A stretch of 24,249 bases of DNA from Syntrophaceae bacterium UBA5619 (lineage in GTDB: Bacteria; Desulfobacterota; Syntrophia; Syntrophales; UBA5619): assembly GCA_002424545.1 (NCBI GenBank), contig DIKL01000093.1, forward strand, positions 1-24,249, in the 5' to 3' direction. This document shows positions 3,918-23,269 of the stretch, one piece after another (position 1 is the first letter of the stretch; each line of letters opens with the position of its first letter). Both the position numbers and the translations under genes were made by a program. The notes beneath the pieces are model-generated. The model ran no database searches. It was not told where the DNA came from and saw only the letters and a list, made by a program, of their open reading frames with translations.

Positions 3918-3949
3918 TTATTCACAGTTTTATCCACACCTGTGGACAA
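3918..3949. promoter_or_regulatory. Cluster of three DnaA boxes upstream of dnaA
   Basis: Three 9-mers lie within 32 bases. They are TTATTCACA (3918-3926, plus strand), TTATCCACA (3930-3938, plus strand, the strict consensus) and TTGTCCACA (3941-3949, read on the minus strand). The last two face each other across two bases. They sit 12 bases upstream of the dnaA start and overlap a plausible promoter, so they may both autoregulate dnaA and form the second half of a bipartite oriC. Confidence 0.85.
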
Positions 3950-3957
3950 TGTTTCCA
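3929..3957 (-). promoter_or_regulatory. Candidate dnaA promoter overlapped by DnaA boxes
   Basis: On the minus strand TGGAAA (3952-3957) and GATAAA (3929-3934) are separated by 17 bases. Each matches four of six sigma70 consensus positions. The -10 and spacer coincide with DnaA boxes. The match is moderate only and no transcript start is known. Confidence 0.45.
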
Positions 3958-3995
3958 TAAAACGGGGAAAGGATTGAAATCCGTTCCCTGTTTTA
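3958..3995 (-). terminator. Intrinsic terminator at the end of parB
   Basis: The arms 3958-3975 and 3978-3995 are complementary at 16 of 18 positions around a tight loop. Each outer end carries an A- or T-run (AAAAC and GTTTTA). Read on the minus strand, the stem is followed by GTTTTATGG. The parB stop codon lies within the upstream arm. It should separate the parAB transcript from dnaA and could work in both directions. Confidence 0.7.
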
Positions 3996-5611: not shown

Positions 5612-5705
5612 TTAACGGAACAAGCCCCGCGCTTTTTTTTATGGTGGAATCGGCGTCAAGGGTAACACAAAAACCGATTTTAATAAAGATTTTTTCAAGA
5701 AAAGA

Positions 5706-6374
5706 TCAGCCAAAAACGCGATTGTAAATGATGATTATTCTTGGACTATTTTTGCCGGACCGGGAGACGCGCCGCTGGGTCGTGAAGGCCATCCCCGCCG
5801 CGGTTGAAATCCGCTCGGTTTCCGCCATCTCGATCCGCGGAACGGGCCCCTTCATTGCGATCAATTGGCCGCCCGGTTTGAGGAAAAAAGCGGCCATCCG
5901 GAGCAGTTCGGGAAGTTTGAATGCCGCCCGCGAGATGACCGCATCGAAGCGGCCGGAAAGGGTCTTCCCGGCGGTCAGCGTTTCAACGCGCTCCTGGATC
6001 ACCTGAACCCCATCGAGGGCAAGGGTCCGGACGATATGAGAGAGAAAAGAGGATTTTTTCCGGGAGGTTTCGACGAGCGACAGTTGCAGATCGGGCAGCG
6101 CGATCCGCAACGGAATGCCGGGAAATCCGCCTCCGCTTCCGAGATCGATCAGGGAACCTTGCGGGCGCTCCAGAAACGGCGCCGGCGTCAACGAATCGAG
6201 AAAGTGGCGGACGACGATTTCCCGGGAAGAACGTTCCGAGACGAGGTTCATCCGCCGGTTCCAGAGGAGGATCTCCCGGTGGTAGGCGACAAAGTATTCC
6301 AGCTCCGCCGTTCCCAGACGGACACCGATCTCCGCCGCCTCTTCGGCCAGGGTCTTGATCAGGTTGTCGTCCAT
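5706..6374 (-). CDS. rsmG: 16S rRNA (guanine-N7) methyltransferase RsmG
   Basis: RsmG (GidB) methylates G527 of 16S rRNA with SAM, and loss of the activity classically gives low-level streptomycin resistance. The 222-residue product carries the SAM-binding loop DLGSGGGFPGIPL (77-89), the ETSRKKSSFL segment (102-111) and ISRA followed by the aromatic/Leu-rich stretch typical of the family. It normally follows mnmG (gidA). Here its start lies 6 bases after the stop of a restriction-modification gene instead, with only a weak Shine-Dalgarno, which implies translation from a shared message. parA lies downstream on the same strand. Confidence 0.94.
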   Translation of the reverse strand: MDDNLIKTLAEEAAEIGVRLGTAELEYFVAYHREILLWNRRMNLVSERSSREIVVRHFLDSLTPAPFLERPQGSLIDLGSGGGFPGIPLRIALPDLQLSLVETSRKKSSFLSHIVRTLALDGVQVIQERVETLTAGKTLSGRFDAVISRAAFKLPELLRMAAFFLKPGGQLIAMKGPVPRIEMAETERISTAAGMAFTTQRRVSRSGKNSPRIIIIYNRVFG

Positions 6375-6380
6375 GTTCGT

Positions 6381-9300
6381 CTATTTTTTCACAATCATCG
6401 CATGGATGATGTTCATCGTCTCCACGCTGACCGTGCAGACCCTCCGGAGCAGGTCAATGACTTGTTCTTTATAGTCGGCAAATCGGTAGGCGTCGAACTT
6501 CTCGCGGACGGTCGGGTCTTTGGGCTTGCGCTCCTTGTGATATTCGAGGACCCACTCGATTGCGGAACGGTTGCCGAGTCGGTACTCCCAGGCGGCGGGC
6601 GGAACGCCTTTCAAGGTCGTCGCGCTGTCCACGTGAATGACGCCGGCAGCTTTATCGGCCTTGAGTATTGCTTTGACGGTGAGAGTCGGCTTGTCAGGTT
6701 CCGGTTTTATGTCTATGCGCGTCAGATGATAAGGATCGGCCTGTTCATACCCAAGGTGCAGTTCCAGCAACCGCCTGCCCCAGGTCGCCCATTTCCGGAA
6801 GTCGTCGTAAAAGGGGATGCGGGGGAATTCCCGTTTGAGGTTGAGCCGGTACTTTTCCCGATAGACAGGATCGTGGAGAACGGCGTAGACGTAATGGAAG
6901 ATATCGAGGCGGGTGATCGCCTTGTCTTTGTAATGGCTTTGAAACTGCTTCAATGCCCAATCGGTGATGTTATCGCCCCGTTCGCCCTCTCGATCGTAAC
7001 GGTAGAGGGGGAGGCACTGAGAGTCGCCGTTGAAGTGCAGATCAACCAGATGATTTGAGGCCAAGACATTGAAGGGTTTGTCGCTGACATTGACAGCAAT
7101 AACTATATTTTCGGCAGTCTTATCCGGAAAAATCAAGGGATTTTGATACTGCATCTCGTTGAGTTCGTGGCTGAAATAGAGTCTCCTTTTGATGAAGGGA
7201 CGATACAGACAGTTCGACATGCATTCCTTCTGAAAAGCGTACGGCTTTCCTTTCGCCAAGTCATTCTTGACGGCGCGAGTCCATTTGATGGCATAATCTA
7301 CGTTATCCCCGACCTCGCCTCGCGTTATTTTTCCGGAAAGCCTTTCAACCTCATGGTTATAAACCCCGATCAGAAATCTTATCTTCCGCTCAAGATTCTC
7401 TTCTCTCTGGTCATAAACCCAGTCATCCCGATTGGTGACCACCCCCAACGAAAAAAGCTTGAAGATTGCTTTCTCATTGATCTTCCCCTTCAACAATTTG
7501 ACGTCCTTTGATGCTACCGGCAACAGATCGTCCCAGTTATTTTCTGTCAGATTGATCCAGTTGTGATGTGCATCCGGCTGAATGTGGTCGAAGGGCAGGT
7601 CCTGTATTCGGTTATCCCGGAGGTAGGCCTTCTTGGTTTCTGACGGGAGATAATCATCGATACAATGGTAGAAGATTTTACATCCTTTGGCTCTGTCTTT
7701 TCGTATCAGGAAATAAACGGCCACACCGACCCGAATCTGGTCACTGAAAACATTGCCGCCTTCGCGCCTGCGCCTTTCGCCGCTTGTCCGGGCATCTCCC
7801 TTCATATCAATGATGTAAATCTCATTAAACTCTTTGGCCACGACTTTTCTAAAACCGTCGTATGTCCTTGCATTAATAAAAGAATTGTTGGAAACAAAGG
7901 CAATAACCCCGTTCTTGTCCAGCCGGTCGCTCGCCCAGCGGATGAAGCGGGCATACATATCGTAGAGCTTGGTCTTCTGCGCGGTGCTTTCCGCGATGTA
8001 GGTGTCCTTGATGCGTTTATCGATGCCCGGGTATTCCCGATTCTTGTTGTTCTCGTTTTCGTTGAGCTGATTGGCGTTGTATGGCGGATTTCCGATGATG
8101 ACGGAGATTTTACGCCTGTTCTGGCGCTTGATCCGTTCCAGATTTTCCGGGGAGAAGCCGCCGAAATCAAAACTGCCGGCCTCGGTGTATTTCTTCGCGG
8201 AGGAGAAGCCGAGGTTGTCCAGCGTATCTACGAAGCAGATATTCTTGAACTCAACGTACCGTCCCATCTTCTGGTAATAAGTGTACTCGATGTTCAAGTT
8301 GGCGATATAGTAGGGTAGGATAGCCACTTCATTGCAGTGGATTTCGTTTTCGTACTTAAAGGGAAGACGGTTCTTGGGAAGATGCTCGATGATCTCGGTG
8401 ATGAAGGTACCGGTTCCTGTGACCGGATCGAGGATTTCGACATCTTCATCTCCGAGGAGCCGCCCGAAATTCTCATTGACCAGGTACTCGGCGGATTCGA
8501 CCATGAAGCGTACGATCTCATTGGGGGTATAAATGATCCCCAAACGGTCCGCCGCAGCCGGATTGTAGGCCCGATAGAAGTTCTCGTAAAAGACTTTGAG
8601 AAAACGTTGTTTTTCGTGATGATTGGCGATCCCGGCCGCGGCGGCCTTGATGATCCGGATGTACGGATCGATCTTGCCCAGAATACCCCTGCGGACGGCG
8701 CCGGTGAAGAAGGTCTCGATCACCCCCATGAGGGAGCGGGCGATGTTGTTCTCTCTGTGAAACTGGGATTCGTTGAAAACGGTGATGAAGATGTCTTCCG
8801 TCAGGATGTGCTGGATGATCATCTCCCGGATGTCGGCCATGACGATGTGGGGGTTGATGGAATCCCGGCAGAGTTCCAGAAAATCCGCGCGCGCCCGGGC
8901 AAAAGCGGCGTTGAGAGCCGCCTGGTCTTCGATCAGTTTCCGTAGCTTGACAACCAGATTGGGGAGATCCTCTTTGAACCTGTCGATCGCCTCCCGGAAG
9001 GTTCGGACCTCCTGGGGTTCATAGTTGACAAAGGTTGTGATCAGGCTGTCTAGGGCGGCGTGGTCTTCGAAGGATGCCCGCTGCAACTCCCGGCCGTTCC
9101 GGATGAGAACGGCGGTCCGGCCGTCTTCGAAGAGGATATTGGTCGTGGGGTAACCTTTGGCAAGTTTCTTCCGGATCTCGTCGTCAAGGGTATCCTTCTG
9201 GTCTTTGCTCTCCCAGTATCCCCAGTCCTGACGATAGGCGTCTTTCAGCGTGCCGTCCGGATTGACGGCTGTGCCGAGTGCGGTCCTGTATTCCAGCTCC

Positions 9301-9446
9301 AGGATCAGCTCGATTTTCTTGTCGGCGCAGTACTGTTCGAGAAGTTTCTGAAAGGCGGGGCGGATGGCGGTTTCATTCCGTGAGCCCCCGTACTGGAGGA
9401 TTTCCTGCACCCTGTTGTGGTATTCTTCGATTAGTTGAAGAGACAT
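6381..9446 (-). CDS. Single-polypeptide restriction-modification enzyme, type ISP/IIG-like (adenine-N6 methylase with nuclease and specificity parts)
   Basis: The 1021-residue protein looks like a combined endonuclease, N6-adenine methyltransferase and specificity subunit. A PD-(D/E)xK nuclease signature is visible as P63-D64 then E79-S80-K81 in GYWESKD. A helical connector (about 150-300) leads to the methyltransferase, with YTPNEIVRFM (306-315), SAM motif I DPVTGTGTF (340-348) and catalytic motif IV NPPY (453-456). The C-terminal part contains YRPF at 748-751, a segment seen in specificity domains of type ISP enzymes such as LlaBIII. No Walker A/helicase block is present and the protein is much shorter than LlaBIII, so it resembles a helicase-less, type IIG-like relative. 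It lies 18 bases after yoeB and 6 bases before rsmG. Cleavage activity and target are unknown; it could be methylase-only. Confidence 0.85.
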   Translation of the reverse strand: MSLQLIEEYHNRVQEILQYGGSRNETAIRPAFQKLLEQYCADKKIELILELEYRTALGTAVNPDGTLKDAYRQDWGYWESKDQKDTLDDEIRKKLAKGYPTTNILFEDGRTAVLIRNGRELQRASFEDHAALDSLITTFVNYEPQEVRTFREAIDRFKEDLPNLVVKLRKLIEDQAALNAAFARARADFLELCRDSINPHIVMADIREMIIQHILTEDIFITVFNESQFHRENNIARSLMGVIETFFTGAVRRGILGKIDPYIRIIKAAAAGIANHHEKQRFLKVFYENFYRAYNPAAADRLGIIYTPNEIVRFMVESAEYLVNENFGRLLGDEDVEILDPVTGTGTFITEIIEHLPKNRLPFKYENEIHCNEVAILPYYIANLNIEYTYYQKMGRYVEFKNICFVDTLDNLGFSSAKKYTEAGSFDFGGFSPENLERIKRQNRRKISVIIGNPPYNANQLNENENNKNREYPGIDKRIKDTYIAESTAQKTKLYDMYARFIRWASDRLDKNGVIAFVSNNSFINARTYDGFRKVVAKEFNEIYIIDMKGDARTSGERRRREGGNVFSDQIRVGVAVYFLIRKDRAKGCKIFYHCIDDYLPSETKKAYLRDNRIQDLPFDHIQPDAHHNWINLTENNWDDLLPVASKDVKLLKGKINEKAIFKLFSLGVVTNRDDWVYDQREENLERKIRFLIGVYNHEVERLSGKITRGEVGDNVDYAIKWTRAVKNDLAKGKPYAFQKECMSNCLYRPFIKRRLYFSHELNEMQYQNPLIFPDKTAENIVIAVNVSDKPFNVLASNHLVDLHFNGDSQCLPLYRYDREGERGDNITDWALKQFQSHYKDKAITRLDIFHYVYAVLHDPVYREKYRLNLKREFPRIPFYDDFRKWATWGRRLLELHLGYEQADPYHLTRIDIKPEPDKPTLTVKAILKADKAAGVIHVDSATTLKGVPPAAWEYRLGNRSAIEWVLEYHKERKPKDPTVREKFDAYRFADYKEQVIDLLRRVCTVSVETMNIIHAMIVKK

Positions 9447-10094: not shown

Positions 10095-10120
10095 ACTTAT
10101 TGCGTGGACTTATTGCGTGG
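10095..10120. repeat. 13-bp perfect tandem repeat at the end of the transporter gene
   Basis: ACTTATTGCGTGG occurs twice head to tail (10095-10107 and 10108-10120). The transporter stop codon lies in the copy nearer the gene and a second in-register copy of the stop follows outside. It marks the boundary between the transporter and the toxin-antitoxin module. Confidence 0.9.
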
Positions 10121-11222
10121 TCTTTCCCCACCATTTTTCCATTCCGTAATGGACGGCGAGGCCGGCCGCGAAACCGACGGCCATGTTGGCAAGCAGGGAA
10201 ACGGCGACGGTGAAAACCAGCGGGATCAGGTCTCTGCCGGGCCGGACATCCCGAGCGAACTTCGTCAGCTCGATTCCGACCAGGAGCATCATCGCCCCGA
10301 TGATCGCGAGCGGGAAGGCGGAAAAGAGACCGGCGATGGCCGCCGCGAAGAAGAGTCCGAGCGTGATCTCGATCGCCCCTTCGATCAGGTTGGTCCCGCC
10401 GGTGCGCGCGCCGAAATAGTACTGCCCGGCGAGGCCGCCGGAGCCGTGGCACATCGGCATCCCCCCGAAGAACGGAAGAACGAGGTTCATGATCCCCTGA
10501 TTCCAGGAGAGCTTTCCCACCGTGACCGGCCGGTCGGGGAAATAGCTCCCGATCAGCGCGGCGGTCGCGATCGTTGCGTTCGTGATCGTCAGCGGAATCT
10601 GCGCAAAACCGGCCAGAACCAGCGAATCCCAGACCTCCTGGGGGTGAAAACCGGTCAGTGGCGGCGGCGTGAAGCGAATGAGATCCGCTGCCGGAAGGCG
10701 GCCCTGAAATGCGACGATGGCGATTCCGAGGAGCATCAGCACAACGGCGGCCGGGGCGTAGCGGCTCTCCCGCAGAACCAGCACAATCGCGATCGCCGCG
10801 ACGCCCAGGAGCCAGCCGGTTGAAATCATTTTTACGGCCTCGACGGCGAGCAGGATCCCGAGGGTCGCCTGGATCCCCCGGACGACGCTTTTCGGCGTAA
10901 TCTTCGCGAGGCGGCCGATGATTCCCGTTGCCGCGAAGAGGACCCAGACGATCCCCATCGCGAAACCGGAGGCGTAGATCAGCGAAGGCGTCCAGTGCTG
11001 GGCGATCGCGACGACGGCCAAAACCTTCATCGGCTCGATCGGCATCGGGATTTTGTAGATCAGGCCGGTCGCGACGTTGGCCAGGCCCATCATCACAAGG
11101 AATCCGGCCGGATCGAGGCCGCAAACGGCGATGTAGCCGATGGCGAGCGGGAAGAGGGTCCCGAAATCCCCCATCGATCCGGCCAGTTCCCGCAGGTTGA
11201 ACTCGAACGAGCGGATCTTCAT
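10110..11222 (-). CDS. MOT1-family molybdate/sulfate transporter
   Basis: This integral membrane protein of the SulP-related MOT1 family is probably an importer of molybdate, or of tungstate or sulfate. The 370 residues include about ten hydrophobic spans. Two family motifs are clear: GSMGDFGTLFPL (15-26) with PMPIEPMK (59-66), and GGMPMCHGSGGLAGQYYFGA (253-272). The start at 11222 is preferred to the ATG two codons earlier because the GGAG Shine-Dalgarno directly abuts the earlier codon but lies six bases before this one. It follows the CDGSH gene on the same strand with a gap of about 95 bases. That gap holds a GC-rich CCCGGG inverted pair (11276-11295) but no clear promoter or T-run. Substrate is inferred from family only. 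Confidence 0.85.
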   Translation of the reverse strand: MKIRSFEFNLRELAGSMGDFGTLFPLAIGYIAVCGLDPAGFLVMMGLANVATGLIYKIPMPIEPMKVLAVVAIAQHWTPSLIYASGFAMGIVWVLFAATGIIGRLAKITPKSVVRGIQATLGILLAVEAVKMISTGWLLGVAAIAIVLVLRESRYAPAAVVLMLLGIAIVAFQGRLPAADLIRFTPPPLTGFHPQEVWDSLVLAGFAQIPLTITNATIATAALIGSYFPDRPVTVGKLSWNQGIMNLVLPFFGGMPMCHGSGGLAGQYYFGARTGGTNLIEGAIEITLGLFFAAAIAGLFSAFPLAIIGAMMLLVGIELTKFARDVRPGRDLIPLVFTVAVSLLANMAVGFAAGLAVHYGMEKWWGKTTQ

Positions 11223-11316
11223 TCCCATCTCCGTGGATAGACCGGTCGGCTTGTCCCTGAAGGTTTCTCCAGCCTCCCGGGAACGTCAACCCGGGTCATT
11301 CTCCGACCCGCAGGGG

Positions 11317-12337: not shown

Positions 12338-13180
12338 TCAATCTCCCATTTTGACCCGTTCGGCGGATGTCCGGAAAATCCAGGAGACGGAGGCGCCGCA
12401 CATCCAGGAGGATTTCGTTTTGACCAAGGGGCTCTCCTCGAATGCGGCGCCCCGGAGGTCGTCGAGGCTGACAAAGGCATTCAGGATGAAAGGACGGATC
12501 GTTTTGTTGAGGCCGACGGTGAGGGTCGAGCCGCTGTAGCCGCCGCCGGCGTCGTAGGGGGCGCGCGCCGCGGTCGCGAAGGCCGGATCCACGGTGTAAT
12601 AATAACGGTGATAACCCCGGTCGGCGAACATCGGACCGGCCGAAAGTCCCAGATTCAGCCCGAGGCCGGGGAGAATATCGGCTTTTTCGAAACTCAGTCG
12701 CGGATGGAACATCCACCCTTCATGACGGACCGATGAAAAGTCGGTCGAGAAGGCGGCCCGAACCGGAAGGTTGAGTTTCAGTTTGTAACGGTCCTGCCGG
12801 TCTTCCAGCAGGGTGACGTTCAAGGCCGGGCCCGCTTCAAATGTCGGATCCAGATCGGGCATCCCGCGGCGGTCCGGATTGTCCGAACTCTTCACCGGGA
12901 CGCTCCCGTTGAAACTCAGGTCCAGCAAAAGCCGGTCGGTTTCGAAGATGCGTCCGGAGATGCGTTCCCGTTCGACCCTCAGGATATCGCCCCGATAGAT
13001 GAAATAGGGATAGGGGAGCAGATAGAGCCGGTATTCGTCGGAGCCCCGGTAATCGGGCATCCGCAGCGCGGCCAGGCCCACGCCGAGTTCCCAGAGGGGC
13101 TTTCCCTCGCACCATGCGCTTCCCGGAGAGAAAAATCCCACAAGGACGAACAGAATCGCCAAAAGGCGTCGAATAGGCAT
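12338..13180 (-). CDS. MipA/OmpV family outer-membrane protein
   Basis: This is a predicted outer-membrane beta-barrel of 280 residues, exported by a signal peptide (MPIRRLLAILFVLVGFFSPG then SAWC, cleavage probably after about residue 23-25). Family features are WELGVGLAALRMPDYRGSDE, LLPYPYFIYRGD, FEAGPALNVTL and the C-terminal strand ending in an aromatic (CGASVSWIFRTS). Some members are scaffold proteins for murein synthesis or salt-inducible porins; the function here is unknown. The start at 13180 follows GAGG by five bases, and the upstream open frame encodes nothing signal-like. It lies 56 bases downstream of the Fe-S protein gene in the same direction. Confidence 0.85.
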   Translation of the reverse strand: MPIRRLLAILFVLVGFFSPGSAWCEGKPLWELGVGLAALRMPDYRGSDEYRLYLLPYPYFIYRGDILRVERERISGRIFETDRLLLDLSFNGSVPVKSSDNPDRRGMPDLDPTFEAGPALNVTLLEDRQDRYKLKLNLPVRAAFSTDFSSVRHEGWMFHPRLSFEKADILPGLGLNLGLSAGPMFADRGYHRYYYTVDPAFATAARAPYDAGGGYSGSTLTVGLNKTIRPFILNAFVSLDDLRGAAFEESPLVKTKSSWMCGASVSWIFRTSAERVKMGD

Positions 13181-13236
13181 CCCGACCTCACAGAGGGAAA
13201 GTGTCTGTTTACAGCGTCTTGCGAAGAACGACCCGC

Positions 13237-14121
13237 TCAGCCGGAGCGCCCCGGGACCGGAATTCGAGATTCGCAGGGAACGCCGGTCTGGCAAAGGCCG
13301 CAGGCGTCGGTTTCAAAACCGAACCGGGCCTGGACGGACTTTGACGCTGCCCCGTGGACGTAGTGTTCACATTTCTCCTTGTCATGCCCGCCCTCGCGGG
13401 TGATCGCGTCCGCCGGGCACCGCTGGATGCATTTGCCGCAACTGCCGTTGTAATAAAAGAGACAGTAGGCGTGATGATCATCATAAGGCCTCTCGGTCGC
13501 GGGAAGGGCGATCCGGGCCACTATGGAGCCGCAGCGCATTGCCTTGCCGCGGGGTGTGATCAGACCGTCGCAGAGCCCGAACGTTCCCAGGCCGGCGGCA
13601 TACGCCGCGTGCCTCTCCGACCAGGAGGAGGCGAAACCATAACGGGCGGAGTTTTCCCGCCGCCAGAGGGGCGATCTCATGGGCGCCACCGCTTCGTGTC
13701 CGGCCTCCCGGAGAACGCCCGCAACGTGATCGCGCAGCCGCATATTGAAATTTTCCCCGAAATTGCGGGATCGCGCCCATCGCTCGGCGGGTAGGGTCTT
13801 TTCCCGGCTGTTGTCGTTCCGGGTCCGTTCCGTCTGCGGCAGGATCCAACTGATCACCGTCAATTCGGCGGGCGTGACCTTCACATCGGGAAACGTCACA
13901 CCGAAGATCTCCGCCGGCGTCCAGAAAAAGGGTCCGATATTGTCCTTGAAATGTTGATAGAGCGGATCATCGCCGCGGGAGAAGCCGACGAGAGGCTCAT
14001 CCCATGCAGGCTCGTCGGCGTCACCCGGTTCAATGCGGTTTTCGTCGGACGCGACGAACCGGCCGATGCTTTCCCGGATCCACGCGGCCGCCTTGTCTGC
14101 TTCATTGCTTGCTTGGGTCAT
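13237..14121 (-). CDS. QueG-like double [4Fe-4S] cluster protein
   Basis: This 294-residue iron-sulfur protein resembles epoxyqueuosine reductase (QueG) and reductive-dehalogenase-like proteins. The middle contains AYAAGLGTFGLCDGLITPRG, typical of this branch. The C-terminal third has CGKCIQRCPADAI, a further Cys in DKEKCEHY, and CGLCQTGVPCE. These are cluster motifs with slightly non-standard spacing: the first position of the usual CxxCxxC run is Asn (NGSCGKC). No Tat or secretion signal is seen, so it is likely cytoplasmic. The start at 14121 has an excellent GGGGAGGTGG Shine-Dalgarno. It is transcribed divergently from the TetR gene. True queuosine function is uncertain; electron transfer or another reductase role is possible. 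Confidence 0.8.
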   Translation of the reverse strand: MTQASNEADKAAAWIRESIGRFVASDENRIEPGDADEPAWDEPLVGFSRGDDPLYQHFKDNIGPFFWTPAEIFGVTFPDVKVTPAELTVISWILPQTERTRNDNSREKTLPAERWARSRNFGENFNMRLRDHVAGVLREAGHEAVAPMRSPLWRRENSARYGFASSWSERHAAYAAGLGTFGLCDGLITPRGKAMRCGSIVARIALPATERPYDDHHAYCLFYYNGSCGKCIQRCPADAITREGGHDKEKCEHYVHGAASKSVQARFGFETDACGLCQTGVPCESRIPVPGRSG

Positions 14122-14361: not shown

Positions 14362-14994
14362 ATGACCACCCCCCTCGAGAAGGCCCGCAAGGATCCCGAA
14401 TCGATGAAGGCCCGCATCCTGGCCGTCGCGCGCCGGATCTTCGGCGAGTATGGCTTCCACGGCACGACGACCCGGATGATCGCCCAGCAGGTAGGAATCG
14501 ACATCTCCACTCTCCATTACCACTGGGGCGGCAAGAAGGACCTCTATGAGGCCGTCGTCGTCGATATCAACAAGGATCTCGGGCAGAAACTGATCGAGAC
14601 GGAAAAGGCCATCCATGGTCTTCCGCTGACCGAACGGCTGGATATCGCAATCGACCGGATGACCGACTACCTCTTCGCAAACCCCGACATCTCCAACATG
14701 ATTCTCTTCCGCTACTTCGGAAAGACCCGCTACGAGGGGAACACGGATTTCAGCGTTCCCGAGTTCACCGCCGATATTGCCCGCTCCATGGGATTGGCCC
14801 GGGACAAAAAAAACGTCCCGCCCGAGACCATGATGAAGGTGCTGGCGGTGATGAACTCGATCCATGCCTTTATTGCGGGCGAGAACTTTTTTTGTCCCAT
14901 GGTGAAGGTGGACAGGGAGCGGTATATCGCCCTGGTGAAAGAGACCCTGAAGTTCGTCCACATTCCCGCCTTCACGCTGAACGAAACGCGTTGA
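14362..14994 (+). CDS. TetR-family transcriptional regulator
   Basis: This is a 210-residue one-component repressor. The N-terminal helix-turn-helix is plain: KARILAVARRIFGEYGFHG, then TTRMIAQQVGIDISTLHYHW and GGKKDLYEAV (about residues 16-67). The C-terminal helical domain would bind the inducer, plausibly an acyl-CoA given the operon that follows in the same direction after 99 bases. The ATG at 14362 follows GGAAGG. It is divergent to the QueG-like gene with a palindrome between them. The ligand is inferred from context only. Confidence 0.93.
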   Translation: MTTPLEKARKDPESMKARILAVARRIFGEYGFHGTTTRMIAQQVGIDISTLHYHWGGKKDLYEAVVVDINKDLGQKLIETEKAIHGLPLTERLDIAIDRMTDYLFANPDISNMILFRYFGKTRYEGNTDFSVPEFTADIARSMGLARDKKNVPPETMMKVLAVMNSIHAFIAGENFFCPMVKVDRERYIALVKETLKFVHIPAFTLNETR

Positions 14995-15020: not shown

Positions 15021-15060
15021 CATTCCGGGAACGACGGGACCCGCGTTCCCCCGGAAAATG
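15021..15060 (+). other. Hairpin between tetR and the first beta-oxidation gene
   Basis: GGGAACG (15027-15033) pairs with CGTTCCC (15044-15050), and the stem extends outward with bulges (CATT/AATG, CC/GG). A short TTTT tract follows a few bases later. It could be a weak terminator or attenuator, or a 5' leader structure for the downstream gene. No separate promoter for that gene was recognised. Confidence 0.4.
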
Positions 15061-15093
15061 TTTTCATCATCCGCATGGTCAAGGAGGGAACCA

Positions 15094-17223
15094 ATGGCAC
15101 TCAACATGGATGCAATCGGCAAAAAGATCGGCCCCCTGAAGAAAGAGTACGACTGGCGGGACGTGGTACTCTATGCGCTCGGCGTCGGGGCCGGGGCCGA
15201 CGAGCTGGACTACACCTACGAGAAGAATCTCAAGGTGATCCCCAGTTTTTCCATCGCGGCGATCTTCAATTTTCTGGGTGAAGTCGGCGTCGCGTCCAAC
15301 ATGAACCTGGCGGGAATTCTCCACGGCGAGCAGGAACTGATTTTCCACAACCCGATCCCCACCTCGGGGACGCTGACGACCGAGGGGAAGATTACCCACT
15401 ACTATGACAAGGGGCCCAAGGGAGCTCTCGTCGTGGCGGAAAGCGACACCTTCCACTCGAACGGAAAGAAGCTCTTCACGAACATCATCACCGTCTTCGC
15501 CCGCCTCGACGGCGGTTTCGGCGGCGAGAACGCCCCCCCGAACGTCGTCGAGTTCCCCGGGCGGGAGCCGGACTTTGCCGTGGACGCCGCCCCATCCCCG
15601 AACCAGCCGCTGATCTACCGCCTTTCCGGAGACGTCTTTCAGCTTCATGTGGATCCGGAGTTCGCGCGGATGGTGGGTTTCGAAAAGCCGATCATGCACG
15701 GCCTGTGCACCCACGGCTTTGCCTGCCGCGCGCTGATGGCAAGCCTCACGCCGGGAAGGCCGGAGCAGGTCCGGCGCCTGGCCTGCCGCTTCTCGAAGAC
15801 CCTCTACCCCGGCGACCCGATCCGGACGCTGATCTGGAAGGTCGCGGAGGGAAAGGCCCTCTGGCGGACGATCAACACCCGGACCAATGATACGGTCATC
15901 GACAACGGCGTGTTCGAATACGGCGATGTTCCGAAGGATGAAATCCGCTTTGACGGGCGCGTCGCGGTGATCACCGGCGCCGGCGGAGGCCTGGGCAGGG
16001 TCTACGCGCTGGAGCTGGCCAAACGGGGCGCAAAGGTGGTCGTCAATGACTTCGGCGGCGGGAGAGACGGCGTCGGCGAGGGATCGCGGACCCCGGCCCG
16101 GAAAGTCGTCGACGAGATCCAGACCCACGGAGGCGAGGCGATCGCGAACTATGACAACGTGGCCACACCCGAGGGGGGAGAAAAGATCGTGAAGGCCGCG
16201 ATCGACGCCTTCGGGACGATCGATATCCTGATCAACAACGCGGGGATCCTCCGCGACAAGAGCCTTGCCAAGATGGAGCCGGAAACCTGGCAGGCGGTCC
16301 TGGATGTTCACCTGAACGGCGCGTACCACGTGACGAAGCCCGCCTTCGCCGTCATGAAAGAAAAGGGGTACGGCCGGATCGTGATGACGACCTCCGCCGC
16401 GGGCCTCTACGGGAACTTCGGCCAGACCAACTACAGCGCGGCGAAGATGGCCCTCGTCGGCTTCATGAATACGCTGAAGCTGGAAGGGGCCAAATATGAC
16501 GTCAAGGTGAACACGGTCGCGCCGATCGCCGCCTCGCGGCTGATGGCCGACGTCATCCCCGCCGACATCCTCGACGGGATGAAACCGGAATTCGTGGCGC
16601 CGCTGGTTCTCTTCCTCGCCTCGGAAAAGTGTCCGGTCACCGGGCGGATCTACAACGCGGGCGTGGGATTCTACAACCGCGCGGCCGTCATGACCAGCCC
16701 CGGGACGGTGGTGGGCGACGGGAAGAAGGTCCCGACGGTCGAGGAGGTGGGGGCGGCCTGGGAGCGGATCCTGAGCCTGAAGGGCGCCAAGGAGATCGGC
16801 CAGTTGAACGACCTCATGGGCGATATGCTCACCGCCTTCGACCGAAAACCGGAGGCGGCGGGTTCCGCCGTCCCGGAAGCGTCCTCCGCCGGAAACGGCG
16901 GGATCGCCTCGGTCGCAGCCGTTTTCGAAAAGATGCCCGGGGCGTTCCGCGCGGAGAAGGCCGCCGGCGTGAACGTCGTCTTCCAGTACACGATTTCCGG
17001 CGAGGGGGGCGGGGAGTGGTTTGCCGAAGTCAGGGAAGGAGCCTGCAAAGTGGATGCGGGAAAACACGCGGGCCCAACCTGCACCCTCACGATGGCTTCC
17101 GCCGATTTCCTCGACCTGATCAACGGAAAGCTTCCGGCGATGCAGGCCTACACTTCGGGGAAACTGAAGATCGGGGGCGACATCATGAAGTCGCAACTGA
17201 TCGGAAAACTCTTTAAATTCTGA
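15094..17223 (+). CDS. Trifunctional hydratase2 (MaoC)-SDR-SCP2 beta-oxidation protein
   Basis: This 709-residue fusion resembles peroxisomal multifunctional enzyme type 2 with the order of its catalytic parts exchanged. Residues about 15-280 are a double-hotdog (R)-specific enoyl-CoA hydratase 2: RDVVLYALGVGAG near 22, then YRLSGDVFQLHVDPEFA with Asp180 and His185 at the catalytic positions. The family's Asn-Pro between them is Phe-Gln. Residues about 284-560 are a short-chain dehydrogenase with TGAGGGLG (294-301), NNAG (381-384) and Ser434, Tyr447, Lys451. Residues about 606-709 are an SCP2 lipid-carrier domain ending MQAYTSGKLK...GDIMKSQLIG. It would hydrate trans-2-enoyl-CoA and oxidise the (3R)-hydroxyacyl-CoA with NAD. 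The ATG at 15094 is set by AAGGAGGG; the frame is open further upstream. It is 28 bases before the next gene. Confidence 0.9.
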   Translation: MALNMDAIGKKIGPLKKEYDWRDVVLYALGVGAGADELDYTYEKNLKVIPSFSIAAIFNFLGEVGVASNMNLAGILHGEQELIFHNPIPTSGTLTTEGKITHYYDKGPKGALVVAESDTFHSNGKKLFTNIITVFARLDGGFGGENAPPNVVEFPGREPDFAVDAAPSPNQPLIYRLSGDVFQLHVDPEFARMVGFEKPIMHGLCTHGFACRALMASLTPGRPEQVRRLACRFSKTLYPGDPIRTLIWKVAEGKALWRTINTRTNDTVIDNGVFEYGDVPKDEIRFDGRVAVITGAGGGLGRVYALELAKRGAKVVVNDFGGGRDGVGEGSRTPARKVVDEIQTHGGEAIANYDNVATPEGGEKIVKAAIDAFGTIDILINNAGILRDKSLAKMEPETWQAVLDVHLNGAYHVTKPAFAVMKEKGYGRIVMTTSAAGLYGNFGQTNYSAAKMALVGFMNTLKLEGAKYDVKVNTVAPIAASRLMADVIPADILDGMKPEFVAPLVLFLASEKCPVTGRIYNAGVGFYNRAAVMTSPGTVVGDGKKVPTVEEVGAAWERILSLKGAKEIGQLNDLMGDMLTAFDRKPEAAGSAVPEASSAGNGGIASVAAVFEKMPGAFRAEKAAGVNVVFQYTISGEGGGEWFAEVREGACKVDAGKHAGPTCTLTMASADFLDLINGKLPAMQAYTSGKLKIGGDIMKSQLIGKLFKF

Positions 17224-17251: not shown

Positions 17252-19996
17252 ATGATCGGAATCACATCCTACGGCGCCTACATTCCCCGCCTGCGGCTGG
17301 ACCGGATGGCGATCTATCAGGCCATGGGCTGGTTCGCCCCGGCCATCGTGATGGTTGCCCAGGGGGAACGCTCGATGTGCAACCATGACGAGGACAGCCT
17401 GACGATGGCGGTTGCGGCCGCCCGGGACTGCCTGACCGGACAGGACAAAAAAACGATCGAAGGGGCCTATCTCTGCTCGACGACGCTTCCGTTCGCCGAC
17501 CGGCAGAACGCGGGGATTCTCAAGACCGCGCTCAACCTCCGGGACGACATGATCACCGCGGACATCACCTCTTCGCTCCGCGCCGGCACGACTGGACTCC
17601 TGACCGCCCTCGAGACGGCGCAGGGGGGAAGCCGGAAGAATATCCTGGTTGCCGCCGCGGACAAGCGGGAGACGAAACCCGCCTACTTCTACGAGATGTG
17701 GTTCGGCGACGGCGCGGCCGCTTTTCTCGTCGGGGATCGCGATGTGATCGCGGAGTTCAAGGGGGCCTATACCGTCTCCTACGATTTCGTCGACCACTAC
17801 CGCGGCGCCGGGAAGCGCTACGATTACATGTGGGAGGAGAGGTGGGCCCGCGAAGAGGGGTACTCGAAGTTTATCCCCGAGGCGGTGGACGGCCTGTTCA
17901 GGAAGCTCGGCATTACGATGGACGACGTCCAGAAGGTGGCCTTTCCCTGCCTGTTTAGGGCGGAACACAAGGCGATCGCCAAGAAGCTGGGCGCCTCGCC
18001 GGAGAAGGTGATCGACACGATGCACGAGCAGTGCGGGGAGACGGGCGCGGCCCATCCGCTCCTGATGTTCTGCGCCGCCCTCGAACGGGCCCGGCCCGGC
18101 GACGGGATCCTGCTGGCCGGTTTCGGACAGGGGTGCGACGCCCTCTATTTCAAGGTCACCGAGGCGATCACGAAACTCGCCCCGCGCGCGGGCGTGCAGG
18201 GGTCGCTGGAAAACAGGAAGCCTATCGACAATTACATGAAATTCCTGAAATTCCGCGGGCTGATCGATCCCGAGATGGGGATCCGGGCGGAGGCCCCTAC
18301 ACAGACGGCGATGACCGTCCTCTGGCGCAAGCGCCGGATGATCACCGGCCTCGTCGGCGGAAAATGCCGGGACTGCGGAACCGCCCAGTACCCGAAGATG
18401 GATGTCTGCGTGAACCCGAAATGCAACCACGTCCACACGCAGGAGGATTATGAATTTGCCGACGTCCCGGCCCGGATCAAGACCTTCACGGGCGATCTGC
18501 TGGCCGTGTCGGTGGACCCGCCGGCGATTTACGGGATGGTCCAGTTCGAAGGGGGCGGCCGCTTCATGGCCGACTTCACCGACTGCGAACTTTCGGACTG
18601 CAAGGTGGGGCGTCCGGTCAAAATGGTCTTTCGGCGGCGGTTCACCGACAACGAGCGGGGATTCTCCGGCTATTTCTGGAAGGCCGTTCCCCAACACAAG
18701 GCGGCCGAGCCCGATCCCCTCCCGGAGATCCGGTTCGACGGCCGCGTTGCGATCGTCACCGGCGCCGGCGCCGGCTTGGGAAGGGCCTACGCAATGGAGC
18801 TCGCCAAACGGGGCGCAAAGGTGGTCGTCAACGACTTCGGCGGCGCGCGCGACGGCGCGGGAACGGGTTCCAGCAGTCCGGCCGATAGAGTCGTGGCGGA
18901 GATCCGCGCCGCGGGCGGCGAGGCGGTCGCAAATTACGACAACGTGGCCACCCCCGAGGGGGGCGAGAAAATCGTCAGGACCGCGGTCCATTTCTTCGGC
19001 AAGGTGGACATCCTGATCAACAACGCGGGCATCCTCCGCGACAAGAGCTTTCTAAAGATGGATCCGGAGAACTGGAGGGCGGTTCTCGCCGTCCATCTGA
19101 ACGGCGCCTATCACGTAACGCGTCCCGCCTTCGCCGTGATGCGGGAAAACGGGTACGGCCGGATCGTTCTGACGACCTCGGCCGCGGGCCTCTACGGGAA
19201 CTTCGGCCAGACCAACTACGGTTCGGCGAAGATGGGGCTGGTCGGCTTCATGAACACGCTCAAGCTCGAAGGCGCGAAGTACAACATCCTGGTCAACACG
19301 ATCGCCCCGGTCGCCGCCTCGCGGCTCACCGAGGACGTGATGCCGCCCGACATGTTCCAGCGGATGCAGCCCGACTTCGTCGCCGGGATCGTCCTCTATC
19401 TCTGCTCCGAGAAATGCGCCGGGAGCGGCGACATCTTCAACGCGGCGGCCGGCTTCTACAGCCGGGCGGCGATCCTGACCGGTCCGGGCGCGGTCCTCAG
19501 CGACGGGAAGATCATCCCGACGCCCGAGAAGATCCGCGACCATTGGGAGAGGATCAACAGCCTCGAAGGGGCGGAAGCGCTTGGCGATGCCAACAGCGCG
19601 ATCCTGTCCTTCATGACGCCCCCGACCCCGAAGGCGGAGGAGGCCGGGGCCGCGGGTTCGGCGGAAGGCGCGCCCGACGTGAAGGGGGTCTTTGCGAAGA
19701 TGCCGGAGGCCTTCCGGCCGGAGAAGGCGGCGGGGGTGAATGTCCTCTTCCAGTTTTCGATCTCCGGTCCCGGCGGCGGCGACTGGGCCGTTGCCGTGAA
19801 GGATGCAACCTGCAAGGTGGAGGCGGGCAAGGCGGAGAAACCGACGACGACGATCAGGATGGCCGACGGGGACTTCCTGGCGCTGATTGCCGGGAAACTG
19901 GACGGGATGCAGGCCTACACCTCGGGCAAGCTCAAGGTGGAAGGCGACATCATGAAATCCCAACTCATCGGCAGGCTCTTTACATTCGGGAAATGA
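17252..19996 (+). CDS. Four-domain fusion: HMG-CoA-synthase-like, DUF35 (Zn ribbon/OB), SDR, SCP2
   Basis: The 914-residue protein has four recognisable parts. Residues 1 to about 310 have the HMG-CoA synthase/KAS III fold (ITSYGAYIPRLRL at the start, GFGQGCDALYF near 291-300). By alignment from memory with archaeal HMG-CoA synthase, the catalytic Glu, Cys and His are Thr77, Leu109 and Pro232, so the domain is probably inactive. Residues about 345-475 are a DUF35 domain with a zinc ribbon (Cys372, 375, 386, 391) and an OB fold. Residues about 493-770 are an SDR with TGAGAGLG (503-510), Ser643, Tyr656 and Lys660. Residues about 808-914 are SCP2. DUF35 proteins bind thiolases and HMG-CoA synthase in archaea, and the SCP2-type thiolase gene lies next but for a structured spacer. 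It is likely a scaffold plus 3-hydroxyacyl-CoA dehydrogenase. GAGGAGGG fixes the start. Confidence 0.88.
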   Translation: MIGITSYGAYIPRLRLDRMAIYQAMGWFAPAIVMVAQGERSMCNHDEDSLTMAVAAARDCLTGQDKKTIEGAYLCSTTLPFADRQNAGILKTALNLRDDMITADITSSLRAGTTGLLTALETAQGGSRKNILVAAADKRETKPAYFYEMWFGDGAAAFLVGDRDVIAEFKGAYTVSYDFVDHYRGAGKRYDYMWEERWAREEGYSKFIPEAVDGLFRKLGITMDDVQKVAFPCLFRAEHKAIAKKLGASPEKVIDTMHEQCGETGAAHPLLMFCAALERARPGDGILLAGFGQGCDALYFKVTEAITKLAPRAGVQGSLENRKPIDNYMKFLKFRGLIDPEMGIRAEAPTQTAMTVLWRKRRMITGLVGGKCRDCGTAQYPKMDVCVNPKCNHVHTQEDYEFADVPARIKTFTGDLLAVSVDPPAIYGMVQFEGGGRFMADFTDCELSDCKVGRPVKMVFRRRFTDNERGFSGYFWKAVPQHKAAEPDPLPEIRFDGRVAIVTGAGAGLGRAYAMELAKRGAKVVVNDFGGARDGAGTGSSSPADRVVAEIRAAGGEAVANYDNVATPEGGEKIVRTAVHFFGKVDILINNAGILRDKSFLKMDPENWRAVLAVHLNGAYHVTRPAFAVMRENGYGRIVLTTSAAGLYGNFGQTNYGSAKMGLVGFMNTLKLEGAKYNILVNTIAPVAASRLTEDVMPPDMFQRMQPDFVAGIVLYLCSEKCAGSGDIFNAAAGFYSRAAILTGPGAVLSDGKIIPTPEKIRDHWERINSLEGAEALGDANSAILSFMTPPTPKAEEAGAAGSAEGAPDVKGVFAKMPEAFRPEKAAGVNVLFQFSISGPGGGDWAVAVKDATCKVEAGKAEKPTTTIRMADGDFLALIAGKLDGMQAYTSGKLKVEGDIMKSQLIGRLFTFGK

Positions 19997-20262: not shown

Positions 20263-20314
20263 GACGAGACGAGATGAAAAACCGTTCAGCATGATCCATA
20301 AGGAGGGACGAACG

Positions 20315-21523
20315 ATGGCATCTGGAATCAGGGACAAGGTCGCGATTCTCGGAATGGGCTGCACCCGCTTCGGGGAGCGCTGGGATATGGGGGCCGAGGA
20401 GCTGCTGGTCGAGGCGTTCCAGGAGTGTCTCGCCGACGCCGGAATCGAGAAGGAACGGATCGAGGCGGCCTGGTACGGCCACTGCATCGAGGAGATCGGC
20501 CTGGGCAAGTCCGCGACGCCGCTCGGCGTGGCCCTGCGACTCCAGAACATTCCGATCACCCGGACGGAAAACTACTGCGCCACGGGGACCGAGGCCTTCC
20601 GGGGGGCCGTATACGGGGTGGCGTCCGGGGCCTGTGACATCGCGCTGGCGATCGGCGTGGAAAAACTGAAGGACACCGGTTACGGCGGCCTTCCCAATTC
20701 CGGATCCGGCTTCGGGACGCTCGTCTGGCAGTGGTTCCCCAACGGCTCGGCGCCGGGCCTCTTCGCCCAGCTCGCCTCGGCCTACGCCGCCAAGTTCGGC
20801 GTCTCCGATCCGGACCTGAAGCGGGCGATCGGCCATGTCTCGGTGAAGAGCCACGCCAACGGCACGCTCAACCCCAAGGCCCACCTGAGAAAACCCGTTT
20901 CCATCGATCAGGTCCTGGCGGCGCCGATCATTGCCTACCCGCTGGGGCTTTTCGACTGCTGCGGCGTGAGCGACGGCGCCGCCTGCGCGATCGTGACGAC
21001 GCCCGAGATCGCCAAATCCCTCGGAAAAACCGAGCTCGTTTCCGTAAAGGCGATCCAGCTTGCCGTCTCCAGCGGCTACGAAGGGGGTTTCAACGAGTGG
21101 GGCGGGGAACATTTCGTGACGACCAGCCATTGCAGCGCGAAGGCCTATCAAGAGGCGGGGATTACCGATCCCCGCGAGGAGATCAGCATGATGGAACTCC
21201 ACGACTGCTTTTCGATCACGGAGCTGGTCACCTACGAAGATCTCCACATCTCGGAGCGCGGCCACGCCTGGAAGGATTCCCTCGACGGTTTCTACGACCG
21301 CGACGGCAAGCTCCCCGCCCAGGTGGACGGCGGCCTCAAGTGTTTCGGCCATCCGATCGGCGCGTCGGGTCTCCGGATGCTCTACGAGATGTACCTTCAG
21401 CTTTTGGGGCGGGCCGGTGAGCGGCAGATCAAGAACCCCCGCTACGGACTCACCCACAACCTGGGCGGGTTCCCGCACCAGAACGTCTGCGCGATCTCGA
21501 TCGTCGGCCGGTACGAGAATTAA
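20315..21523 (+). CDS. SCP2-type (DUF35-dependent) thiolase
   Basis: This 402-residue thiolase family protein would carry out CoA-dependent cleavage of 3-oxoacyl-CoA. The nucleophile is in NYCATGTEAF (Cys88). The HDCF motif (296-299) replaces the NEAF/HEAF of classical thiolases and supplies the second catalytic Cys in SCP2-type enzymes. GHPIGASG gives His346. The C-terminal segment is LTHNLGGFPHQNVCAISIVG. Relatives of this branch commonly have a DUF35 partner, and the preceding gene carries exactly such a domain. The start at 20315 is chosen from AAGGAGGG just upstream; an in-frame ATG at 20291 is less likely. It is 15 bases before the acyl-CoA dehydrogenase gene. A retro-aldolase role, as in steroid Ltp2 proteins, is less likely because Cys88 is intact. 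Confidence 0.88.
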   Translation: MASGIRDKVAILGMGCTRFGERWDMGAEELLVEAFQECLADAGIEKERIEAAWYGHCIEEIGLGKSATPLGVALRLQNIPITRTENYCATGTEAFRGAVYGVASGACDIALAIGVEKLKDTGYGGLPNSGSGFGTLVWQWFPNGSAPGLFAQLASAYAAKFGVSDPDLKRAIGHVSVKSHANGTLNPKAHLRKPVSIDQVLAAPIIAYPLGLFDCCGVSDGAACAIVTTPEIAKSLGKTELVSVKAIQLAVSSGYEGGFNEWGGEHFVTTSHCSAKAYQEAGITDPREEISMMELHDCFSITELVTYEDLHISERGHAWKDSLDGFYDRDGKLPAQVDGGLKCFGHPIGASGLRMLYEMYLQLLGRAGERQIKNPRYGLTHNLGGFPHQNVCAISIVGRYEN

Positions 21524-21538: not shown

Positions 21539-22681
21539 ATGGATATTCTCAAATACACGGATGAACACCGGATGTTCCGCGATGCGCTGAAGCGGTTCCT
21601 CGCGCGCGAGATCATCCCCCATGTCGAGGAATGGGAGGAGGCGGGGCTTGTCCCGCGCGAGGCCTGGAAGAAGATGGGGGAGCAGGGGTTCCTCGCGATG
21701 GGCGTTCCCGAGGAGTACGGCGGACTGGGGGCCGATTTCCTCTATTCCGTCATCGTCACCGAGGAGATGACCCGGACGAACCATTCGGGCCTGGCCGCCT
21801 CGCTCCACAGCGACATCATCGTTCCGTACATCGTGTCGTTTGCCACCGAGGAGCAGAAGCGCAAATACCTGCCCGGCTGCATCTCCGGCGACATCATCAC
21901 GGCGATCGCGATGACGGAGCCGAACACCGGGAGCGACCTGGCGGCCATCAAAACCACGGCCGTGGAGTCCGGCGATGAGATCATCCTGAACGGTCAGAAG
22001 ACCTTCATCAGCAACGGGATCAACTGCGATCTCCTGGTGATTGCCGCCCGCGACCCCTCCACGGAGAACCCGCACGCCGCCGTCGACCTCTTCCTCGTCG
22101 AGGCGGGAACGCCCGGCTTTGAAAAGGGGAAACAGATCAAGAAGATCGGTTGGCACAGCCAGGACACGGCGGAACTCTACTTCACCGACTGCCGGATCCC
22201 GAAGGCGAACCGGCTCGGCGACAAGGGGTCGGGCTTTCTGAAACTCATGCTGAAGCTCCAGCAGGAGCGGCTCGTCTGCGCGATCGGCGCGGTGGCGGCC
22301 GCCGAATACATGCTGGAGATCACGATCCAGTACTGCAAGGAGCGCACGGCCTTCGGCCGGCCGCTGACCAAATTCCAGAACACGCAATTCGAGATCGTCG
22401 AGATGGCGACCGAGGCCAAACTGGGCCGGACCTTCATCGACAAGCTGATCGCCGACCACATGGAGGGGAAGAACATCGTCGTCGAGGTCTCGATGGCGAA
22501 ATACTGGACGACGGATATGGCCTCCCGCACGGCCGACCGCTGCATGCAGCTTTTCGGCGGCTACGGCTACTGCGAGGAGTACCCGATCGCCCGCGCGTGG
22601 CGGGACATCCGGGTGACCCGGATCTTTGCTGGCACCAACGAGATCATGAAAACGATCGCCGCGCGCTTTATGGGGTTGTAG
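21539..22681 (+). CDS. Acyl-CoA dehydrogenase, LCAD/IVD-like
   Basis: This FAD-dependent enzyme introduces the first double bond into acyl-CoA and would pass electrons to ETF. The 380 residues match the family in length. Signatures are AMTEPNTGSDLAAIKTTA (124-141), NGQKTFISNG (151-160), a GWHSQDTAELYFTDCRIP segment (204-221) and LFGGYGYCEEYPIARAWRD (338-356). At the position where medium-chain enzymes carry the catalytic Glu (YEGT) this protein has FAGT (Ala364). The base is probably Glu243 in QQERL, as in long-chain and isovaleryl-CoA dehydrogenases. That suggests long or branched substrates. It follows the thiolase gene by 15 bases and precedes the lipoprotein gene by 15 bases. Confidence 0.93.
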   Translation: MDILKYTDEHRMFRDALKRFLAREIIPHVEEWEEAGLVPREAWKKMGEQGFLAMGVPEEYGGLGADFLYSVIVTEEMTRTNHSGLAASLHSDIIVPYIVSFATEEQKRKYLPGCISGDIITAIAMTEPNTGSDLAAIKTTAVESGDEIILNGQKTFISNGINCDLLVIAARDPSTENPHAAVDLFLVEAGTPGFEKGKQIKKIGWHSQDTAELYFTDCRIPKANRLGDKGSGFLKLMLKLQQERLVCAIGAVAAAEYMLEITIQYCKERTAFGRPLTKFQNTQFEIVEMATEAKLGRTFIDKLIADHMEGKNIVVEVSMAKYWTTDMASRTADRCMQLFGGYGYCEEYPIARAWRDIRVTRIFAGTNEIMKTIAARFMGL

Positions 22682-22696: not shown

Positions 22697-23269
22697 ATGA
22701 AATTCCGTGGCCTGATTATACTGGCAGGGCTGTTGATTCTGGCCGGCTGCGCTACGCTGAACAAGGAGGAATGCCTCAGTGGGGACTGGCACGGCCTGGG
22801 CATGAGGGACGGCGTCAACGGAGAGCCTGCCGTTCGGATCGAAAAGCATCGCAAGGCTTGTGCCGAGTATGGTGTCCAGCCGGATGAACGCCGTTATTTG
22901 GATGGCCGGATCGAAGGATTGCGCGAATATTGCCGGATCGACAATGCCTTCCGGACGGGCCTGGACGGCAAACGATACCAGGGCGTCTGTCCCCCCGCCA
23001 TGGATTCACTCTTCTGGCGCTACAATGAAGCGGCCTATGCGGTCTACCAGACCAAAGAAGAGATCAAACAACTGAACAGCGAATTGTCCAGCAGGGAAGT
23101 CCGGCTGCGCAGCAAGAAAACCACGGATAAGGAAAGAAGTTATTTGCGCGAAGAGATCCGCGATCGGGACAGAAAACTCGACGATCTGCGATACAATTTG
23201 CGTAACCAGGAGAGAAAACTGGACGACCTGATGGAGGAGGCGCGGCAAGGGAGGGGTGTGCGACGGTGA
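22697..23269 (+). CDS. DUF2799-type lipoprotein
   Basis: This is a 190-residue predicted lipoprotein of unknown function. The signal peptide MKFRGLIILAGLLIL ends in the lipobox LAGC, with lipidation at Cys18. The mature part carries the DUF2799 pattern: GDWHGLGMRDGVNG, HRKACAEYGVQPDERRYLDG, GLREYC and YQGVCP. A long charged segment (about 115-185, heptad-like KERSYLREEIRDRDRKLDDL) is likely coiled coil. Its place inside a beta-oxidation operon is unexpected. The gene lies exactly between the acyl-CoA dehydrogenase and a second copy of that enzyme's C-terminal end. GAGGAGGG precedes the ATG. Assignment to DUF2799 is by pattern from memory. Confidence 0.82.
   Translation: MKFRGLIILAGLLILAGCATLNKEECLSGDWHGLGMRDGVNGEPAVRIEKHRKACAEYGVQPDERRYLDGRIEGLREYCRIDNAFRTGLDGKRYQGVCPPAMDSLFWRYNEAAYAVYQTKEEIKQLNSELSSREVRLRSKKTTDKERSYLREEIRDRDRKLDDLRYNLRNQERKLDDLMEEARQGRGVRR

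Follow-up and report, generated by a model that had tools for sequence, protein, structure and literature searches.

An HMGS-like–DUF35 protein without the HMGS catalytic triad and with a fused SDR–SCP2 tail in Syntrophaceae bacterium UBA5619, a putative thiolase scaffold

Gene content and domain organization of the locus

The window, that is, the whole stretch of 24,249 nucleotides analysed here (contig DIKL01000093.1), contains an apparent beta-oxidation operon in which an ORF of 914 amino acids lies between a MaoC–SDR–SCP2 gene and a thiolase gene (Table 1). Searches against Pfam, NCBIfam, and PDB sequences confirmed the domain order proposed in the first-pass annotation, namely an HMG-CoA synthase (HMGS)-like domain and DUF35 followed by a 3-hydroxyacyl-CoA dehydrogenase of the SDR type and an SCP2 lipid carrier; the interval 17252–18700 given there corresponds to the HMGS-like and DUF35 portions of the ORF. 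Within residues 1–338, matches were obtained to ACP_syn_III_C and to profiles for HMG-CoA synthase; zf-ChsH2 and OB_ChsH2_C matched inside residues 367–461, adh_short at 498–687, and SCP2 at 823–910. The top four PDB sequence matches for the whole protein were 2et6, 1gz6, 1zbq, and 3oml. The SDR domain carried the motifs of MFE-2 dehydrogenases (TGxxxGxG, NNAG, and Ser-Tyr-Lys) intact, as TGAGAGLG at 503, NNAG at 590, and Ser643/Tyr656/Lys660. A match to MaoC or hydratase-2 was not found in the 914-aa chain by profile search; it was present in the upstream gene.

The relationship of residues 1–340 to HMG-CoA synthase and KAS III, also put forward in the first-pass annotation, was upheld by the profile matches and by the predicted fold, which is that of a thiolase-superfamily HMGS; the profile scores were, however, under the curated NCBIfam cut-offs (203 vs 244 bits for NF003274 and 142 vs 353 bits for TIGR00748). 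Among the structure matches listed, all of which concern the N-terminal part of the protein and not SDR or SCP2, the nearest solved structures to the N-terminal domain were archaeal 6esq, specifically chain 6esq_I, and bacterial PhlA. The best PDB sequence match of the DUF35 domain was 6esq_E.

The presence of a DUF35-type thiolase downstream of the four-domain gene was likewise corroborated. Its ORF starts at 20291, and the start at 20315 used earlier is an internal Met. Some 300 bases separate this ORF from the stop at 19996, a wider spacing than the median elsewhere. The protein scored 168 bits against the 6esq_A thiolase, its motifs Cys96, HDCF at 304, and GHPIG at 353 were intact, and Cys96 aligned with a Cys of 6esq_A. 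In the window genome, PF01796 and PF22691 gave one match each, both within this operon. A search of the same genome (88.5% complete, 7.6% contamination) returned no HMGS match over the cut-off.

Further genes of the window were noted on the minus strand. Homologues of dnaN, dnaA, parB, parA, and gidB were clustered at 1261–6374, which we take as a sign that the window may border the chromosome origin. This cluster was followed by genes for a Type ISP restriction-modification enzyme of 1021 aa with Type_ISP_C and coupler domains (6381–9446), a MFS_MOT1 molybdate transporter family protein (10110–11228), and a MipA family protein (12338–13294).

Table 1. Coordinates of the genes, domains, and key residues of the four-domain locus in the window
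Feature	Position	Strand	Basis or state
TetR-family regulator, upstream of the apparent operon	14362..14994	+	PF00440
MaoC hydratase-2 + SDR + SCP2 protein (MFE-2-like)	15058..17223	+	Profile search
HMGS-like–DUF35–SDR–SCP2 protein	17252..19996	+	ORF, 914 aa
HMGS-like (thiolase-superfamily) domain, without catalytic triad	17252..18271	+	Residues 1–340
Thr77, HMGS Glu position	17480..17482	+	Thr in 316/316 readable rows of 318
Leu109, HMGS nucleophilic Cys position	17576..17578	+	Leu 160, Gln 146, few others, never Cys
Pro232 (HMGS His position) and Cys233	17945..17950	+	Pro 316/317, Cys 317/317 readable rows
His268, family-specific conserved residue	18053..18055	+	Invariant in alignment A1; 41/52 wider rows
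DUF35 domain (zinc ribbon + OB fold), ~residues 345–480	18284..18691	+	PF12172, PF01796 above cut-off
Zinc-ribbon cysteines 372, 375, 386, 391	18365..18424	+	Invariant columns of alignment A1
SDR, MFE-2-type (3R)-hydroxyacyl-CoA dehydrogenase, ~residues 492–745	18725..19486	+	1gz6 310 bits; motifs
SCP2 lipid-carrier domain, ~residues 806–914	19667..19993	+	PF02036 64 bits, best stretch 823–910
DUF35-type thiolase, predicted docking partner	20291..21523	+	NF004810 684.5 bits, cut-off 403
Acyl-CoA dehydrogenase, same apparent operon	21539..22681	+	Profile search
DUF2799 protein, 3' of acyl-CoA dehydrogenase	22697..23269	+	Profile search

Catalytic positions and conserved residues of the HMGS-like domain

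Alignment with 6esq_I, which had no gaps within the three motifs, placed the Glu, Cys, and His of archaeal HMGS at Thr77, Leu109, and Pro232, and MAFFT put the same three columns at these residues. Thus, the reading of the triad that had first been made by eye was borne out. The state of these positions in the family was assessed on 318 aligned rows, comprising the window, 237 proteins (best 120 per search), and 80 of 137 confirmed loci, with some proteins counted twice. A wider set of 52 rows was made up of 12 opened plasmid relatives, 35 sequence stretches taken from genomes within the phylum (a few of them present twice and the window itself among them), and five close family rows. Both Glu77 and Cys109 were absent from all 52 wider rows, one of which was gapped at 109, and His232 was kept in two, Sphingopyxis and Halostagnicola. 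Across everything sampled, the loss of the triad thus tracks the HMGS–DUF35 clade and not the four-domain fusion.

Several other residues were strongly conserved. Cys233, His268, Trp150, and W194-E-E-R197 were invariant in alignment A1 and, with the exception of Arg197, differed from both 6esq and PhlA; the position of His268, for instance, is occupied by Ala in 6esq and by Ser in PhlA. Judged from these columns, the constraint exceeds what an inert spacer would need, and the family-specific invariants may serve to shape a path for CoA, an interaction surface, or a newly formed site.

Two readings in which the domain would itself handle substrate were weighed against this background. An active HMG-CoA synthase or KAS III would agree with the fold and with the profile matches, under the curated cut-offs as these are; however, the Glu, Cys, and His positions were replaced in every readable row of the 318, and this reading was rejected as having practically no chance of being correct. 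A different possibility is that the HMGS-like pocket was rebuilt from Thr77, Cys233, Glu263, His268, and possibly His239 and His258, and that it binds or processes acyl-CoA. Consistent with it are the full conservation of Cys233 in the readable family rows, the invariance of His268 and Trp150 in A1, the conservation of His258 and His239 at 98% in the close-family alignment, and the occurrence of Glu or Asp at 263 in 43 of the 52 wider rows, where 6esq has Asn. In addition, the old catalytic positions 77 and 232 are tightly constrained in the close family and show no drift. Nevertheless, the wider rows kept Cys233 in only 37 and Trp150 in only 20 of 52 cases, and this argues against a general role in catalysis. 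The former nucleophile position is occupied by varying residues (Leu, Gln, Ile, Met, and others), and the conserved set could just as well line a path for CoA or form part of an interface. We consider a rebuilt, substrate-handling pocket unlikely.

Distribution, gene linkage, and history of the fusion

Of the 137 confirmed loci, 80 were kept as named loci (L066 was dropped with a broken frame), and 69 of them had a complete ORF. All four domains were encoded by 60 of these ORFs, whereas six were without SCP2, among them the short L049 (607 aa), and three were without both SDR and SCP2. The 60 include ORFs from two complete chromosomes, those of Desulfosarcina alkanivorans (L045) and D. widdelii (L076), and the closest named locus among those kept was from a Syntrophales MAG (L002, 99%). 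An assembly artefact as the source of the architecture was thus ruled out by independent genomes.

The thiolase gene started no more than 400 bases downstream in 62 of the 65 named loci with enough flank; no thiolase was found in the readable downstream flank of L036, L049, and L050. Upstream, MaoC and SDR were present in 65 of 68 named loci, with SCP2 visible in 54 of these 65 genes; L012 and L013 had SDR only, and L036 had neither. A survey of 198 genomes of the phylum gave some match at E 0.001 in 87 genomes, the weak ones being other condensing enzymes, and linkage was scored for the 126 hits of at least about 150 bits, including the window's own and some partial ones. A same-strand downstream thiolase lay within 2.5 kb of at least 112 of the 126 hits and within 200 bases of at least 94, both counts being lower bounds because at most nine thiolase candidates were scored per genome and weak rows were omitted. 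Fourteen hits, some of them near contig ends, had no same-strand thiolase within 2.5 kb.

Among the best 30 survey loci, seven were four-domain, one was without SCP2, and 22 were two-domain. In the other rows of the 126 hits, an open frame long enough for a tail was seen only once (G088), and that frame extended upstream. These counts and short frames indicate that the two-domain form is the common one. Plasmid records matched in 46 cases, of which 12 were opened, chosen for variety. A thiolase gene was adjacent in all 12, upstream in the two haloarchaea, and HMGS–DUF35 was fused in 11, two of which (Sphingomonas and Sphingopyxis) had lost zinc-ribbon cysteines. In the remaining record, a Priestia megaterium plasmid (L096, 3992–6770), the HMGS-like protein, the thiolase, and the zinc-ribbon protein were each encoded by a gene of their own, a Phl-like arrangement that adjoins non-ribosomal peptide synthetase genes. 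A natural fusion of the thiolase with HMGS–DUF35 was not seen in those long open frames of the survey genomes that were inspected, which covered six loci with ORFs listed for five of them: the thiolase frame of L130 was an ordinary ORF of 398 aa, and the long frame of L131 ran upstream of the HMGS match. As to the spread of the fusion, which the first-pass annotation had left to a survey, the SDR–SCP2 tail was seen only in Desulfobacterota relatives, whereas the two-domain HMGS–DUF35 form is common and widespread.

The SDR–SCP2 half of the upstream protein shared 66% identity over 430 columns with the tail of the 914-aa protein, of which it is the paralogue. In related loci, signs of gene conversion between the two SDR–SCP2 copies of one operon were observed. 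Across 63 loci, the mean identity of the SDR copies within one operon was 0.786 vs 0.735 between operons, while fused copies compared with one another averaged 0.743 and upstream copies 0.759. The operon's own upstream copy ranked first among the upstream copies in 19 of the 63 loci; the fused copy was closer to the other copy of its own operon than to any fused copy in nine, and the converse held in seven. The idea that the SDR half was cleanly duplicated long ago was rejected: the two copies were not separated on the tree, many nodes of which were weakly supported, and the best split misplaced 29 of 144 copies. These data are most simply read as a single ancestral fusion with later gene conversion in part of the lineages; repeated duplication is a possible alternative. 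Parsimony on a tree of 119 rows placed the two-domain form at the root and required nine changes in SDR presence and ten in SCP2 presence. The method counts changes and not directions, the node uniting the tailed forms had a low support of 0.26, and hand-picked proteins labelled as two-domain may be truncated. The two-domain loci L014–L016, which have complete ORFs, nested among the tailed forms. This position fits tail loss, and the SDR–SCP2 tail appears to have been lost repeatedly.

Comparison with known systems and proposed role

With the archaeal and Phl complexes the protein shares a four-Cys zinc-ribbon DUF35. In the archaeal thiolase/DUF35/HMGS complex (6esq, 6et9), however, the three components are separate chains and, according to PMC6392133, the HMGS is active, with Cys114 and Glu82, whereas here the triad is gone and HMGS and DUF35 form one chain with an SDR–SCP2 tail. 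Pseudomonas PhlABC (5m3k, 5mg5), CsATase (9skh), and MucABC (9vbo) likewise combine a DUF35 protein with a thiolase-fold catalyst; a further Phl-type complex is treated in PMC12955522. As in the 914-aa protein, the catalytic Cys and Glu of HMGS are missing from MucA, by the family alignment, and from PhlA, a dead HMGS-like subunit described in PMC6392133 and recorded as an inactive family member already in 2010 (PMC2954200). The replacement residues are different (Cys83/Gly115 in PhlA vs Thr77/Leu109 here), and Phl-type systems are three-chain acyl-transfer complexes, in contrast to the fused chain in a beta-oxidation operon. As reported in PMC6392133, the residues of PhlABC that act in acyl transfer all belong to PhlC, but the complex requires PhlA and PhlB to function.

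The SDR and SCP2 tail is shared with peroxisomal MFE-2 (HSD17B4), whose hydratase-2, SDR, and SCP2 are all present in the upstream gene; in the four-domain protein, the HMGS–DUF35 block occupies the place of hydratase-2. In SCPx, the thiolase is joined by fusion, whereas the thiolase of the four-domain protein would be joined, if at all, by docking. The steroid complexes Shy-Sal and ChsH1-ChsH2-Ltp2 likewise use a DUF35 fused to a pathway enzyme to tie a thiolase-fold enzyme, and in Shy-Sal it is the DUF35 domain that binds this enzyme (as described in PMC11321319); they differ in having no HMGS-like domain, MaoC instead of SDR, and an aldolase instead of a thiolase. Further counterparts are the two-domain HMGS–DUF35 proteins, found in Pseudomonadota, Actinomycetota, and haloarchaea and making up most of the survey hits in this phylum; they have the same dead domain, DUF35, and an adjacent thiolase gene. 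They are without the SDR–SCP2 tail, and separate SDR and MaoC neighbours were present in three opened plasmid records.

In our opinion, the non-catalytic HMGS-like domain and DUF35 probably serve as a scaffold for the neighbouring thiolase, with SDR–SCP2 joined to it. The two domains would make up the scaffold half of a three-part thiolase in bacteria, the part that HMGS or PhlA plays together with DUF35 in the archaeal and Phl complexes, with the HMGS-like domain most likely acting as a clamp, and the chemistry would be performed by the Cys and His of the adjoining thiolase. Through the fused SDR and SCP2, this enzyme would be supplied with both a dehydrogenase for 3-hydroxyacyl-CoA and a carrier for acyl groups, so that the last two steps of the beta-oxidation spiral would be joined, the earlier ones being supplied by the upstream MaoC–SDR–SCP2 protein and the acyl-CoA dehydrogenase. 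The domain content, the loss of the triad, the gene linkage, and the intact dehydrogenase and thiolase motifs were observed, and the fold is a predicted one; from these we infer that the partners dock physically, that they act by proximity or by channelling, that the reaction is thiolysis, and that the substrate is a bulky acyl-CoA. Docking is predicted from homology and gene linkage; it is supported by the thiolase linkage in the named loci and survey hits, and by the location of the single DUF35 and the single DUF35-type thiolase of the window genome in one operon. A scaffold also agrees with the nearest solved structures, both of which are of subunits from thiolase/DUF35/HMGS-like complexes. 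By analogy with PhlABC and Shy-Sal, the HMGS–DUF35 block should hold the thiolase, and SDR and SCP2 would be carried along. The case for channelling is weaker than that for docking: in PMC12329534, long flexible linkers are held to disfavour direct channelling in Shy-Sal, a comparable complex. In addition, the Shy hydratase is reported in PMC11321319 to be equally active without its DUF35. The dehydrogenase link appears to be non-essential, since L014–L016 and the 22 two-domain loci of the best 30 in the survey kept the thiolase and had no SDR tail. The three informative loci and the 14 survey hits without a thiolase and the loss of zinc-ribbon cysteines in two plasmid relatives are points against the scaffold, as are the constraint on the family-specific invariants, the wide gap before the thiolase in this window, and the completeness and contamination of the window genome.

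The three-part assembly might instead be a C-acyltransferase or an aldolase similar to PhlABC or Shy-Sal. The solved bacterial complexes that come closest and include a dead HMGS-like subunit, PhlABC and CsATase, are both acyltransferases (PMC6392133, PMC12955522), and aldolases are mentioned among DUF35 partners in PMC12329534. On the other hand, the apparent operon encodes an acyl-CoA dehydrogenase, a hydratase, and a dehydrogenase, and the thiolase keeps its three motifs and scores far over the cut-off of the acetyl-CoA acetyltransferase model (Table 1). The motifs and the operon content argue for thiolysis, and an acyltransferase or aldolase is quite improbable.

The first-pass annotation had suggested that a dead synthase became a docking platform at this locus. 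The absence of the triad, the nearest structures, and the thiolase that follows in most loci agree with such a platform, but not with an event specific to this protein: the dead state is common to the two-domain relatives inspected in Pseudomonadota, Actinomycetota, and haloarchaea, and PhlA is already a published case (PMC6392133). A dead synthase and its use for docking are thus not peculiar to the 914-aa protein. Fusions of DUF35 to SDR, SCP2, thiolase-superfamily, and hot-dog dehydratase domains were also recorded in 2010 (PMC2954200). Thus, both a dead HMGS-like scaffold and DUF35 fusions are already known, and the distinctive feature of the protein is its fused SDR–SCP2 tail. A description of the exact four-domain chain was not found in the open-licence literature with narrow search terms.

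A broader proposal can be made tentatively, at somewhat less than even confidence. Dead-HMGS three-part thiolases may be a widespread, mostly unrecognised class of beta-oxidation machinery in bacteria and haloarchaea, and the Desulfobacterota fusion with a copy of the dehydrogenase–carrier half of MFE-2 may be a prokaryotic counterpart of the peroxisomal MFE-2/SCPx pair, in which a rebuilt pocket would hold CoA or the acyl chain as it passes to the thiolase. Gene conversion would maintain the similarity of the two dehydrogenase copies in part of the lineages. If the scaffold reading is right, many annotations of “3-hydroxy-3-methylglutaryl-CoA synthase,” OB-fold, and SDR proteins in environmental bacteria would refer to scaffolding subunits of thiolases and not to synthases. 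The four-domain protein would then offer a concrete, testable design for tying a bacterial 3-hydroxyacyl-CoA dehydrogenase to a thiolase, and a system for asking what an enzyme fold retains after its chemistry has been lost.
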